Of a DNA stretch of 49,366 bases, positions 35,881 to 40,919 are shown piece after piece (within the stretch, counting starts at the first letter, position 1; each line of letters starts with the position of its first letter). Origin of the DNA: Candidatus Methylopumilus sp. (GTDB lineage: Bacteria; Pseudomonadota; Gammaproteobacteria; Burkholderiales; Methylophilaceae). The stretch is taken from the NCBI GenBank assembly GCA_009693175.1, contig SHXT01000008.1:1-49366 (forward strand), written 5' to 3'. The translations under genes and the position numbers were made by a program. The notes under the pieces are model-generated. The model ran no database searches, was not told where the DNA came from, and saw nothing but the letters and a program-made list of their open reading frames with translations.

Positions 35881-37119
35881 ATGATTAAACTGCACCCTCT
35901 TTTTAAAAATCTTTATCAGAAAAAAGATGAGCCACTCCCTATTTTTATGATGAAAGAAACATTGGCGGGTTGTAAACGTCATAATGTATTTGGTTTAACT
36001 GCATCACTTTCTTTCTTTTCTCTCTTTGCGCTCATCCCAATGATTCTACTTATTTTCTTTTTTTTAAGTCATTGGTTAGTGAATTCTGAATATGCTTTAG
36101 GAAGATTAGTAATTCTCACAAGCGATCTACTGCCACAGATGAGTAAAAAAATTATGCTCGAAGTTTATAAAGTCTCCAGTCATACAAAGGCTTGGGGCAT
36201 TGTAGGTATGTTAATTTTGTTGTGGGCTGCCACACCACTTACAAGTTCACTTCGTTCAAGCTTGCTCGTCATTTCTGCGACCGAAGAAAATCCATCTTTT
36301 TTAAAGAATAAATTAAGAGACATCATCGCTATCATCGGAATCCTCTTTCTTTTCTTTCTCTTTACTTTATCTGGGATTGTTTTTCAAAAGGCAGCGCTTT
36401 TCTTTGGAGAATATTTGAGTGTTTTAAATTCACAAACAATTTATTTCATAGGCTCATTTTCTTTTGTAGTAATTTCTTTAGCACTCTTTAATCGATTCTT
36501 TTTCCCAATTAAAGTAAATGTAAAACATTTACTATTAGGATCATTGCTTGCCGCATGTTTATGGTTGGTATTACGTTCAACCTTCGATATCTTTTTATCC
36601 TTAAGCCAATCTTATGGCACCTTTTTTGGTGGCATGCGAAATCTTTTTATCTCACTCATTTGGCTCTATCTCAATATCTTGTCTTATTTACTTGGCGTGG
36701 AACTTATTGCAACACTACATAAAAAAGATATGTTGCTTCTAAAAAAATTATTTGATGATTCCACATTACCTTCAAGTTCTTTTATGCATTACTTGGCGTC
36801 ACTCTACGGAAAAATTTATCGGAAAGATGAAATGATTTTTAAACAAGGGAACTGTGACCACAATATATATTATATTGTCCGTGGTTCAATCAATCTCGTT
36901 CAGGATAATAAAGTGATACGCGCTTTAAAAGCACATGAATACTTCGGTGAAATGGCAGTTCTAAATGAGACCCCTACGATTGCTTCAGCAGTCTCAACCT
37001 CAAATGAATCTGAAATTATTACTATTCAAAAAAATCATCTTGGAATGATGTTAGCGGATGAACCTAAAGTCGCAATGAAATTTTTAAAGAAAATGTCTCT
37101 TCGCTTGCAACAACGTTAG
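35881..37119 (+). CDS. YihY/BrkB-family membrane protein with C-terminal cNMP-binding-like domain
   Basis: The N-terminal ~290 residues form a YihY (formerly RNase BN) membrane domain with about six hydrophobic helices: GLTASLSFFSLFALIPMILL, then WGIVGMLILLWAATPL and FGGMRNLFISLIWLYLNILS. The last ~105 residues look like a cyclic-nucleotide-binding beta-roll, with EMIFKQGNCDHNIYYIVRGS and EYFGEMAVLNE. The Arg that holds the cyclic phosphate in Crp-type sites is missing: the following residues read TPTIASAV. The domain may therefore sense something else or be structural. It probably forms an operon with pip. Function unknown. Confidence 0.82.
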   Translation: MIKLHPLFKNLYQKKDEPLPIFMMKETLAGCKRHNVFGLTASLSFFSLFALIPMILLIFFFLSHWLVNSEYALGRLVILTSDLLPQMSKKIMLEVYKVSSHTKAWGIVGMLILLWAATPLTSSLRSSLLVISATEENPSFLKNKLRDIIAIIGILFLFFLFTLSGIVFQKAALFFGEYLSVLNSQTIYFIGSFSFVVISLALFNRFFFPIKVNVKHLLLGSLLAACLWLVLRSTFDIFLSLSQSYGTFFGGMRNLFISLIWLYLNILSYLLGVELIATLHKKDMLLLKKLFDDSTLPSSSFMHYLASLYGKIYRKDEMIFKQGNCDHNIYYIVRGSINLVQDNKVIRALKAHEYFGEMAVLNETPTIASAVSTSNESEIITIQKNHLGMMLADEPKVAMKFLKKMSLRLQQR

Positions 37120-39345: not shown

Positions 39346-40263
39346 TTGACTTCCGTAAGTGATTTAATGTCAGCTGATTCCATCATTATTCATGGCCATC
39401 TTTTAAAAGAAACGAGAGAGTCTTCTCTTCTTTCTATTGAGGATGTTGCTCGCAGTTTAACGTTGAGTAATAAGCACATTATTTCGATGGAGGAAAATAA
39501 AAAAGATGGGTTCGTTTCTCTTCAAATGAAACTTATTTCTATAAAAAAATATGCCACATTTTTAAAGCTCGATATTACTCTTGTGATTGAGAATGCAAGT
39601 CATAAAAATAAATCTTTAAAAAATGAAATAGAGAAAGAACTTCCACTGAATAAAAAAATGTGCACTTTATTAAAAATAAAATCATTCTTTTTATGGATAA
39701 AGCATATCAAAGTATCGCATGTCTTTTATTTTGTTATTTTTATCTTTCTCTCCAACTTTATGATTGGCACATATCAAAAATATAACCTTGCACAAAAAAA
39801 CTTTGAGGGTGAAGAAGTGAACTTACCTGTTCTAGCATCGCTTCCTAACGATATTAGCACTTATGAAATAAAGCCTATGCAAGAAAAAGTAGGAGTTCTT
39901 GAGACTACACCATTAGAAACTAAAGCCACTGAAACAGAGAGTGAAGCTCTTGCAATTAAAATATGTGGCCAAGTCATTTCAAAACCGATCACGCAAATTT
40001 TCTCACCTTCAGACCCACTGAAGTCAAGTAATTATTTCCATGCAATCTCAAAACGCCAACAAACTATTTGCGTCCTTGATAGCAAAGATCAAGAGGATAA
40101 ATACACAATGGCAGAAGGAGAAAAATTAACCTATCGAAATGAATCGCCTCCCTTTAAGCTTTTGATCGATCCTACAATGACGGATATTTTTTATGAAGGT
40201 TGGTTAGTGAAACTTAAACCTGATCAAAATTACATTCAGCTTAATCCTAAGACATATAACTAA
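39346..40263 (+). CDS. RodZ-like membrane protein with cytoplasmic HTH
   Basis: The 305-residue protein has a RodZ-type helix-turn-helix at about residues 17-80 (LLKETRESSLLSIEDVARSL, then HIISMEENKKD). One membrane segment lies near 126-146 (VFYFVIFIFLSNFMIG). A periplasmic tail ends with PPFKLLIDPT, like the domain found at the RodZ C terminus. RodZ links MreB to the cell wall and sets rod shape. The conserved ispG neighbour is absent. The TTG at 39346 has AGGA upstream; the ATG at 39367 is an alternative start. Confidence 0.7.
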   Translation: MTSVSDLMSADSIIIHGHLLKETRESSLLSIEDVARSLTLSNKHIISMEENKKDGFVSLQMKLISIKKYATFLKLDITLVIENASHKNKSLKNEIEKELPLNKKMCTLLKIKSFFLWIKHIKVSHVFYFVIFIFLSNFMIGTYQKYNLAQKNFEGEEVNLPVLASLPNDISTYEIKPMQEKVGVLETTPLETKATETESEALAIKICGQVISKPITQIFSPSDPLKSSNYFHAISKRQQTICVLDSKDQEDKYTMAEGEKLTYRNESPPFKLLIDPTMTDIFYEGWLVKLKPDQNYIQLNPKTYN

Positions 40264-40286: not shown

Positions 40287-40889
40287 TTATTTAAATTTTC
40301 GAACAGCACCTGTTACAACGCCCCATATTTCAAATTGCACACCCTCTAATACTTCGATCGGACTAAATGCTTCATTGGCAGGAAGTAAACGTGGCGATCC
40401 ATTTTTATTTTTTGCTAAAGTCTTAACTGTAAATTCACCATCTAATGAAGCCAAAACGATATCTCCGATCGAAGCCTCTTGCGAGCGATCAACAATTACA
40501 ACATCATCATCATGGATACCTGCATTATCCATGGAGGCTCCTTTAATACGCACGAAAAAAGTCGTATCAGCCTCACGAATTAAATAATCATTAAGATCCA
40601 TTCTTTTTTCGACATGATCATCAACTGCTGAGGGAAGGCCCGCTGGCACCTTATGTTCAAATAAGGGTATCTTTGTCTTGGTGAGGGCTTTATTCACCAA
40701 ATCAATCGAAACTACGTTTGAAATTTCTTGAATCTTACGTTTAGCATAAGCCTCTAGAATGTTAGATATCACAGCGGTTTGACTTTCTGGGATTCTGATT
40801 AAAGTAGTTTTTTCACCAAACTTACCTGTGCCCGACTTACGTCCAGCACCGACTCTTTTGCCACCTCGAATAGGAACGATCTTTTTCAT
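40287..40889 (-). CDS. UmuD/LexA-type self-cleaving regulator with novel N-terminal domain
   Basis: The 200-residue protein ends in a UmuD-like S24 protease core: cleavage site A83-G84 in VPAGLPSAVDDHVEKRMDLN, catalytic S119 in GASM and K156 in FTVKTL. Spacing (36 from cleavage site to Ser, 37 from Ser to Lys) equals that of E. coli UmuD. About 59 extra N-terminal residues are not the LexA winged helix. They hold a basic GGKRVGAGRKSG arm and a strand-helix TTLIRIPESQ reminiscent of ribbon-helix-helix DNA-binding domains. No umuC is adjacent. The start codon lies within a 37-base palindrome, which suggests a damage-induced autorepressor. Confidence 0.85.
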   Translation of the reverse strand: MKKIVPIRGGKRVGAGRKSGTGKFGEKTTLIRIPESQTAVISNILEAYAKRKIQEISNVVSIDLVNKALTKTKIPLFEHKVPAGLPSAVDDHVEKRMDLNDYLIREADTTFFVRIKGASMDNAGIHDDDVVIVDRSQEASIGDIVLASLDGEFTVKTLAKNKNGSPRLLPANEAFSPIEVLEGVQFEIWGVVTGAVRKFK

Positions 40890-40919
40890 TTGATTATTGT
40901 AACAATAATCAAATGAAAA
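40883..40919. promoter_or_regulatory. 37-base perfect palindrome covering the start of the UmuD-like gene
   Basis: TTTTCATTTGATTATTGT and its exact reverse complement are separated by a single A at 40901, giving 18-base arms. The start codon (complement of 40887-40889) lies inside one arm. On the minus strand the centre contains TACAAT, a good -10 element, six bases before the ATG. A protein bound here would block both transcription and RNA start, so this looks like an operator for autoregulation. Confidence 0.75.

Follow-up and report, generated by a model that had tools for sequence, protein, structure and literature searches.

The closest described system to the locus reported here is UmuDAb of Acinetobacter (A1S_1389 type), for which both repression and self-cleavage have been shown (PMC4807011 and PMC11332147). 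Acinetobacter is stated to be without LexA (PMC11332147), the UmuDAb operator is given as TTGA(N4)GTWAC(N4)TCAA (PMC11332147) and DdrR is described as Acinetobacter-specific (PMC11332147). A self-repressing UmuD in a LexA-less host is already known from Acinetobacter. In E. coli, by contrast, transcription of UmuD is controlled by LexA (PMC8565304). Further S24 proteins that are not LexA, namely HdiR and the Bacteroidetes and Francisella FddR regulators, took over damage control where canonical LexA is missing; they differ from the protein studied here in being kin of phage repressors and not of UmuD, and the Bacteroidetes operators differ as well. Searches of a collection of open-access papers, at the level of titles, abstracts and selected passages, found no UmuDAb-type regulator outside Acinetobacter, nor did they find Methylopumilus treated together with lexA.

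Here we describe a umuD-like gene in a stretch of 49,366 nucleotides (hereafter the window, meaning the whole of the DNA that was analysed). A PQQ-dehydrogenase-like gene recognized on reading the window, together with the closest named relatives, which are Methylophilaceae records, points to a streamlined methylotroph of that family, a betaproteobacterium, as the host. Judged by its sequence and by analogy with UmuDAb, the product of the gene is quite probably an autorepressor of the UmuDAb type, on which RecA-driven self-cleavage would act to lift repression. Its plan would be that of LexA, a dimeric S24 repressor that is inactivated through self-cleavage, but no winged-helix domain was found in it.

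A umuD-like gene starting within a perfect palindrome

The gene and the residues of its S24 domain that are relevant to processing are as follows.

40287-40889, minus strand: umuD-like gene of 200 aa (open reading frame with ATG start; PF00717, E 2.6e-29)
40887-40889, minus strand: ATG start codon, within the outer arm of the palindrome (sequence and open reading frame)
40638-40643, minus strand: self-cleavage site A83-G84, invariant in alignment A2 and paired with the C-G of E. coli UmuD
40533-40535, minus strand: catalytic Ser119, invariant in alignment A2
40422-40424, minus strand: catalytic Lys156, invariant in alignment A2

A83-G84, S119 and K156 align with E. coli UmuD without a gap, so their spacing is that of UmuD, as an earlier reading of the sequence alone (hereafter the sequence-only reading) had claimed. 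The 200-aa protein scores 137.4 bits against the Pol V UmuD model NF007621, above its cut-off of 110, and falls below the cut-off of the LexA model TIGR00498 (87.7 versus 110.95 bits). It thus shares the S24 domain, the cleavage site and the dyad spacing with the Pol V UmuD of E. coli, but the E. coli protein (139 aa) is without the N-terminal domain described below. No umuC is adjacent to the gene in the window.

The divergent neighbour of umuD resembles HU, as judged by eye. Convergent to umuD lies an HTH_25 protein with a TTG start (39346-40263, plus strand), which is weakly RodZ-like and far below the cut-off of the RodZ model. Farther away, a 412-aa open reading frame (35881-37119, plus strand) fuses a BrkB/YihY-type membrane domain to a C-terminal cyclic-nucleotide-binding domain.

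The start codon of umuD is embedded in the following elements.

40883-40919, no strand: perfect 18+1+18 palindrome that includes the start codon (two arms of 18 nt, 100% complementary and separated by 1 nt)
40890-40912, no strand: conserved candidate operator TTGA-N5-GTTAC-N5-TCAA, 23 bp, abutting the ATG (conserved in the genus; enriched with arm-bearing UmuDs)
40899-40903, no strand assigned, read on the minus strand: operator core GTTAC, consistent with the GTWAC core published for UmuDAb (PMC11332147)
40896-40901, minus strand: putative -10 element TACAAT within the core of the operator, separated from the ATG by 6 nt (from the sequence)

Both the perfect palindrome around the start codon and the TACAAT at its centre had been reported by the sequence-only reading and are borne out. 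With spacers of 0-8 nt allowed, the palindrome is the longest dyad of the window, the next longest having arms of 12 nt; in 20 mononucleotide shuffles (spacer 0-1) the longest arm was 12 nt versus the 18 of the palindrome. The 37-bp sequence is single-copy in the 1.17-Mb, 97%-complete genome when up to three mismatches are allowed. A sigma-70 promoter scan left the TACAAT site unlisted, no good -35 element was seen for it and no Shine-Dalgarno sequence was seen before the ATG. Because TACAAT lies only 6 nt before the ATG, the umuD transcript is probably leaderless.

Homology with UmuDAb

The N-terminal domain comprises three recognizable parts.

40722-40889, minus strand: predicted DNA-binding N-terminal domain, residues 1-56, with a basic arm, a strand-like segment and one helix (alignments A1 and A2, model)
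40836-40865, minus strand: GGKRVGAGRK arm, residues 9-18 (G9, G10, R12, G16 and R17 invariant in 57 N termini)
40788-40808, minus strand: strand-like segment T28-P34, TTLIRIP (R32 and P34 invariant; paired by hhalign with the RHH_1 strand)

Among the 40 tblastn rows listed, UmuDs of Acinetobacter, Legionella and a Synechococcus plasmid align over residues ~8-200 at 40-44%. One Acinetobacter match sits 5' to 5' with an 83-aa open reading frame and has the upstream site TTGAAAATGTAACTTTTTCAA. Both open reading frames and the site match the umuDAb/ddrR primers and the EMSA probe of PMC11332147, and the mutants E24K and K40P/N41P of the same paper fit the numbering of the Acinetobacter protein, which identifies the pair as UmuDAb and DdrR. 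Across 23 aligned sequences, UmuDAb among them, residues G9, G10, R12, G16, R17, T28, R32 and P34 are invariant. By these alignments the N-terminal domain, with its GGxR..AGRK arm, strand-like segment and helix, is homologous to that of UmuDAb. The sequence-only reading had contrasted the DNA-binding fold of the protein with that of UmuDAb; since the N-terminal domains are homologous and the operators nearly the same, this contrast fails.

The two systems therefore share near whole-length homology, including the N terminus, TTGA/TCAA arms around a GTWAC core before the regulator's own gene, and hosts in which no LexA has been found. They differ in that each operator spacer is N5 in the window and N4 in UmuDAb, that is, one base longer here, and in that the box abuts the ATG in the window, whereas it lies 44 nt upstream in UmuDAb. 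The divergent gene is HU-like here (by eye) and DdrR in Acinetobacter; our search for DdrR, run without a positive control, found no match. Moreover, the regulon seems to consist of umuD alone, and the host is probably a betaproteobacterial methylotroph.

Genomic setting and regulon

Profile searches with PF00717 and PF01726 found no canonical lexA in this genome: the one match to PF00717 (S24 peptidase) in the 97%-complete assembly is this umuD, and LexA_DNA_bind (PF01726) has zero matches in this genome and in 15 congeners. Exactly one UmuD/LexA-like match (E<=1e-6) is present in 14/16 genus genomes, this one included, and the remaining two, without such a match, are 68% and 81% complete. 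The genome has recA, with no box seen upstream of it by eye. A umuC gene (418 aa) is found on a separate contig (C11; G000:C11, L003/L208), in agreement with the observation of the sequence-only reading that none is adjacent to umuD. The gene is found in 14/16 genus genomes; in the two in which its upstream stretch could be read, the box is absent (by eye). Five loci of the sister genus have umuC immediately downstream of umuD.

Further copies of the palindrome before DNA-repair genes, which the sequence-only reading had suggested looking for, were not found. A relaxed search for the box (<=2 mismatches) gave 45 places in the genome, of which one is exact, one has one mismatch and 43 have two, versus 37 places for a reversed control pattern. 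The exact box occurs only at umuD itself and the one-mismatch site falls within a reading frame, as do all nine different one-mismatch sites listed for the genus, each viewed in one genome. With a single exact box and one-mismatch sites that lie inside open frames, the simplest reading is a predicted regulon of umuD alone, a one-gene loop. UmuDAb represses several umuDC/umuC genes; here, umuD's own box was the only one found and umuC has none.

The candidate operator is conserved and accompanies the N-terminal arm

The full perfection of the 37-bp palindrome is peculiar to this genome, and in the 13 other genus genomes with the gene 15-16 of the 18 positions pair. The conserved portion is the inner 23 bp, which is exact and abuts the ATG in 14/14 genus genomes that have the gene, counting this one.

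We then examined relatives drawn from viral contigs as well as from GTDB genomes, in which the box was searched from -130 to +15 of the start; a first viral scan with a single-sequence query had found no relative. Excluded from the counts were L122, with its 82 aa, L109 and L206, which lack the cleavage motif, and an arm-less locus whose upstream stretch was too short. Of 78 arm-bearing UmuDs, 23 have an exact box and nine have one with a single mismatch, where dinucleotide shuffles lead one to expect 0.0 and 0.05, respectively. None of 53 UmuDs without the arm has a box within two mismatches, in a control set that is redundant, comes largely from phage contigs and includes L117, the frame of which looks mis-read. 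Clustering at 70% identity leaves 10 exact and five one-mismatch boxes among 46 arm-bearing groups, and none within three mismatches among 14 arm-less ones. A form with a 4-bp core, TTGA-N5-GTAC-N5-TCAA, is exact at five and has one mismatch at 13 of the 78 arm-bearing loci, and is not found within three mismatches at the arm-less ones. Control patterns gave 0 exact and three one-mismatch sites with the core GATC, 0 and 0 with CAWTG, and 0 and 0 with changed arms among the same 78. A box of any of three forms is present within two mismatches at 61/78 arm-bearing loci; the 17 without one include L180, a false positive that is counted within the 78. It is left out of a set of 77 loci, 27 of which have no box within one mismatch. 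The distance from box to ATG ranges from 0 to 45 nt among the relatives. What the box accompanies is the N-terminal arm, not UmuDs in general. Four arm-less loci (L172, L176, L200 and L202) have an exact 21-bp box of the UmuDAb type and are perhaps targets of UmuDAb in trans.

The combination of domain and operator extends to records named as Beta-, Gamma- and Alphaproteobacteria, Cyanobacteria, Opitutia (Verrucomicrobia) and marine Actinomarina, some of which are metagenome bins in which contamination is possible. Arm-bearing UmuDs with boxes also occur on the predicted viral contigs L153-L156, hinting at mobility of the module. A TIGR00498 search covering 44 of the 80 genome loci found LexA above the cut-off in 6/44 genomes, a count made with genome completeness not stated and with noncanonical LexAs liable to fall below the cut-off; in 24/44 there is a single match (E<=1e-5), presumably UmuD itself. 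All six LexA-bearing genomes (L087, L095, L107, L108, L119 and L135) have an operator with the GTAC core, two exact and four with one mismatch, and the core type may track coexistence with LexA.

Residue 30 covaries with the operator core

One codon of the strand-like segment tracks the length of the operator core.

40800-40802, minus strand: codon of L30 (covariation with the GTWAC/GTAC core)

Over 50 boxes, core type is most strongly associated with the alignment column of L30 (z 16 in a comparison with shuffled labels, versus 12 for the next column); as the column was chosen post hoc from these 50 loci, it was checked on held-out ones. Across 83 loci, residue 30 is Ala or Pro in 24/24 cases with a GTAC core; with a GTWAC core it is one of Val, Leu, Thr, Ser and Ile in 55/59, the exceptions being L125, L127, L128 and L134, so that the rule holds overall in 79/83 loci, held-out ones included; loci without a box within one mismatch are omitted from this residue table. 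The rule holds for 19/19 held-out loci from outside the genus, or ~15 once near-identical rows are merged, and these loci share at most ~75% identity with the discovery set. Six more held-out loci with boxes within one mismatch (L020, L021, L050, L060, L062 and L065) also follow it, among them L060 with a GTAC core and Ala; two of the six, L020 and L021, seem closely similar to the discovery loci L073 and L076. These six, L063 and L068, the last of which has no box within two mismatches, are outside the 83-locus set.

Relatedness is not fully removed from these statistics. A tree built from the C-terminal domain alone provides 10 independent pairs with unlike cores, of which seven are concordant, three uninformative and none discordant. 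When columns are ranked by the number of fully separated pairs, L30 falls outside the best eight, three of the ten pairs having Ala or Pro on both sides, and residue 30 may act on core choice indirectly. That core length tracks L30 points to DNA reading by a strand and not by a LexA-like helix-turn-helix.

These data bear on whether the protein is instead an ordinary Pol V subunit, with some other repressor using the palindrome and the arm serving, for example, to tether UmuD to DNA or RecA. Such a role would fit its NF007621 score, as well as the umuC-like DNA found downstream of 50/73 arm-bearing UmuDs (four further ones being unjudgeable). It would, however, leave the box following the arm and not UmuD, and the core length following an N-terminal residue of UmuD; furthermore, no other S24 repressor was found in the genome, and the same-armed UmuDAb binds the same kind of box (PMC11332147). 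We consider this explanation improbable.

Structure of the N terminus

AlphaFold2, run with 60 sequences, yields a confident S24 domain and a block of residues 21-50 with pLDDT values of 80-95, residues 1-20 being in the 60s. In the full model an unassigned stretch is followed by one helix (residues 35-56); the N terminus modelled alone forms a single long helix (35-71) after an unassigned segment. A three-helix wing domain and a second helix are both absent from the monomer models. Residues 28-34 are given no strand, and since the monomer models assign no secondary structure there, the strand is one that we infer.

In profile comparisons with hhalign, the N terminus matches RHH_1 with a score of 18.2 over 24 columns (probability 16.5%), strand and first helix being in register, versus 11.6 over six columns for LexA N termini. 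Twenty column-shuffled controls score <=8.3 against RHH_1, but RHH_1 against LexA, an unrelated pair, itself scores 14.2, so the likeness to ribbon-helix-helix proteins is weak and the margin modest. Pfam RHH_1 is matched by 1/57 N termini (E 0.047), and profile searches of Pfam and of PDB sequences with the N terminus returned nothing convincing. Foldseek of the full model against the PDB is uninformative on this region, as its 40 matches with E <= 0.001 are all UmuD, LexA or phage-repressor chains. In some relatives ~35-45 residues precede the S24 domain, and the short stretch between the strand-like segment and that domain, for example in L149, implies that both a second helix and a wing are dispensable.

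The sequence-only reading had described the N terminus as resembling ribbon-helix-helix proteins and not the LexA winged helix. What stands is a weak resemblance to RHH_1 (NikR/CopG type) in the strand and first helix, better than that to LexA. The full ribbon-helix-helix fold finds no support: the monomer models have one helix, the hhalign probability is 16.5% and some relatives are too short to hold a second helix. We call the N terminus ribbon-like, not ribbon-helix-helix. The 163-aa UmuD at L149:2492-2980 has an N terminus that is almost only arm and strand-like segment, a putative natural minimal DNA-binding domain, and carries the one-mismatch palindromic box TTGATTATTGAAACAATAATCAA upstream. 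Quite speculatively, the arm may be similar to an AT-hook (GRPKG) lying in the AT-rich spacers.

A second alternative keeps the autorepressor and gives it a LexA-like (winged) helix-turn-helix, as has been proposed for UmuDAb from secondary-structure predictions, I-TASSER and AlphaFold, and from helix mutants that derepress (PMC11332147, PMC4807011). The missing strand at residues 28-34 of the monomer models agrees with this proposal, but the same models have a single helix in place of three and a wing, hhalign favours RHH_1 over LexA by a modest margin, and the ~35-45 residues before S24 in some relatives are few for such a domain. In addition, the UmuDAb helix mutants were only slightly reduced in binding and the operator core mattered most (PMC11332147), which, carried over by analogy, fits reading of the core by a strand. 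A helix-turn-helix is, on these grounds, unlikely.

Proposed mechanism

The sequence-only reading had proposed a damage-sensing repressor that controls itself, and such a role gains support from LexA not being found, from an operator conserved in the genus and beyond, and from its association with the arm. A third possibility, that the palindrome, which includes the start codon and might base-pair in the transcript, is a hairpin masking that codon for translational control and not a protein operator, is very remote, given that most of it would be untranscribed if TACAAT is the -10, that the position of the box before the ATG varies among relatives (0-45 nt) and that specific bases, matching a published protein operator, are kept and not symmetry alone.

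In the autorepressor model, intact UmuD would dimerise through its C-terminal S24 domain, and the dimer would bind TTGA-N5-GTTAC-N5-TCAA via two N-terminal elements, made up of the GGKRxGAGRK arm, a core-reading strand and one helix. As the operator covers the putative -10 and adjoins the start codon of an mRNA that is probably leaderless, bound UmuD would silence its own gene. Upon DNA damage, RecA filaments would trigger self-cleavage at A83-G84, stripping off the DNA-binding end, which would lift repression and yield UmuD', the partner form of UmuC. A single cut would in this way both open the gene and activate its product. The loop appears to control only itself here, umuC being elsewhere and without a box. 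Binding, repression, RecA-dependent cleavage and the polymerase role are what we infer for this protein by analogy; the dual role is uncertain, because UmuDAb did not complement or act as a polymerase accessory (PMC4807011).

Implications

Within the literature searched, the new elements are the presence of such a system, and its single-gene form, in a streamlined betaproteobacterium, the spread over several phyla with a conserved operator, and a candidate specificity residue. The balance tips slightly towards a broader view, in which self-repressing UmuDs would form a widespread class, usually with umuC next to them and often in genomes in which no LexA is found, and UmuDAb would be one of its branches. 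Members would use a minimal new DNA-binding element of ~35-56 residues (an AT-hook-like GGxRxGAGR[KP] arm, one strand and one helix), residue 30 would set a 5-bp GTWAC or a 4-bp GTAC core, and the cut that frees the promoter would also make the polymerase subunit. If this is true, UmuDAb is not an Acinetobacter oddity. The data name one residue that is likely to read the operator core. They also suggest that many LexA-less lineages keep a one-gene damage switch inside the mutagenic polymerase itself.
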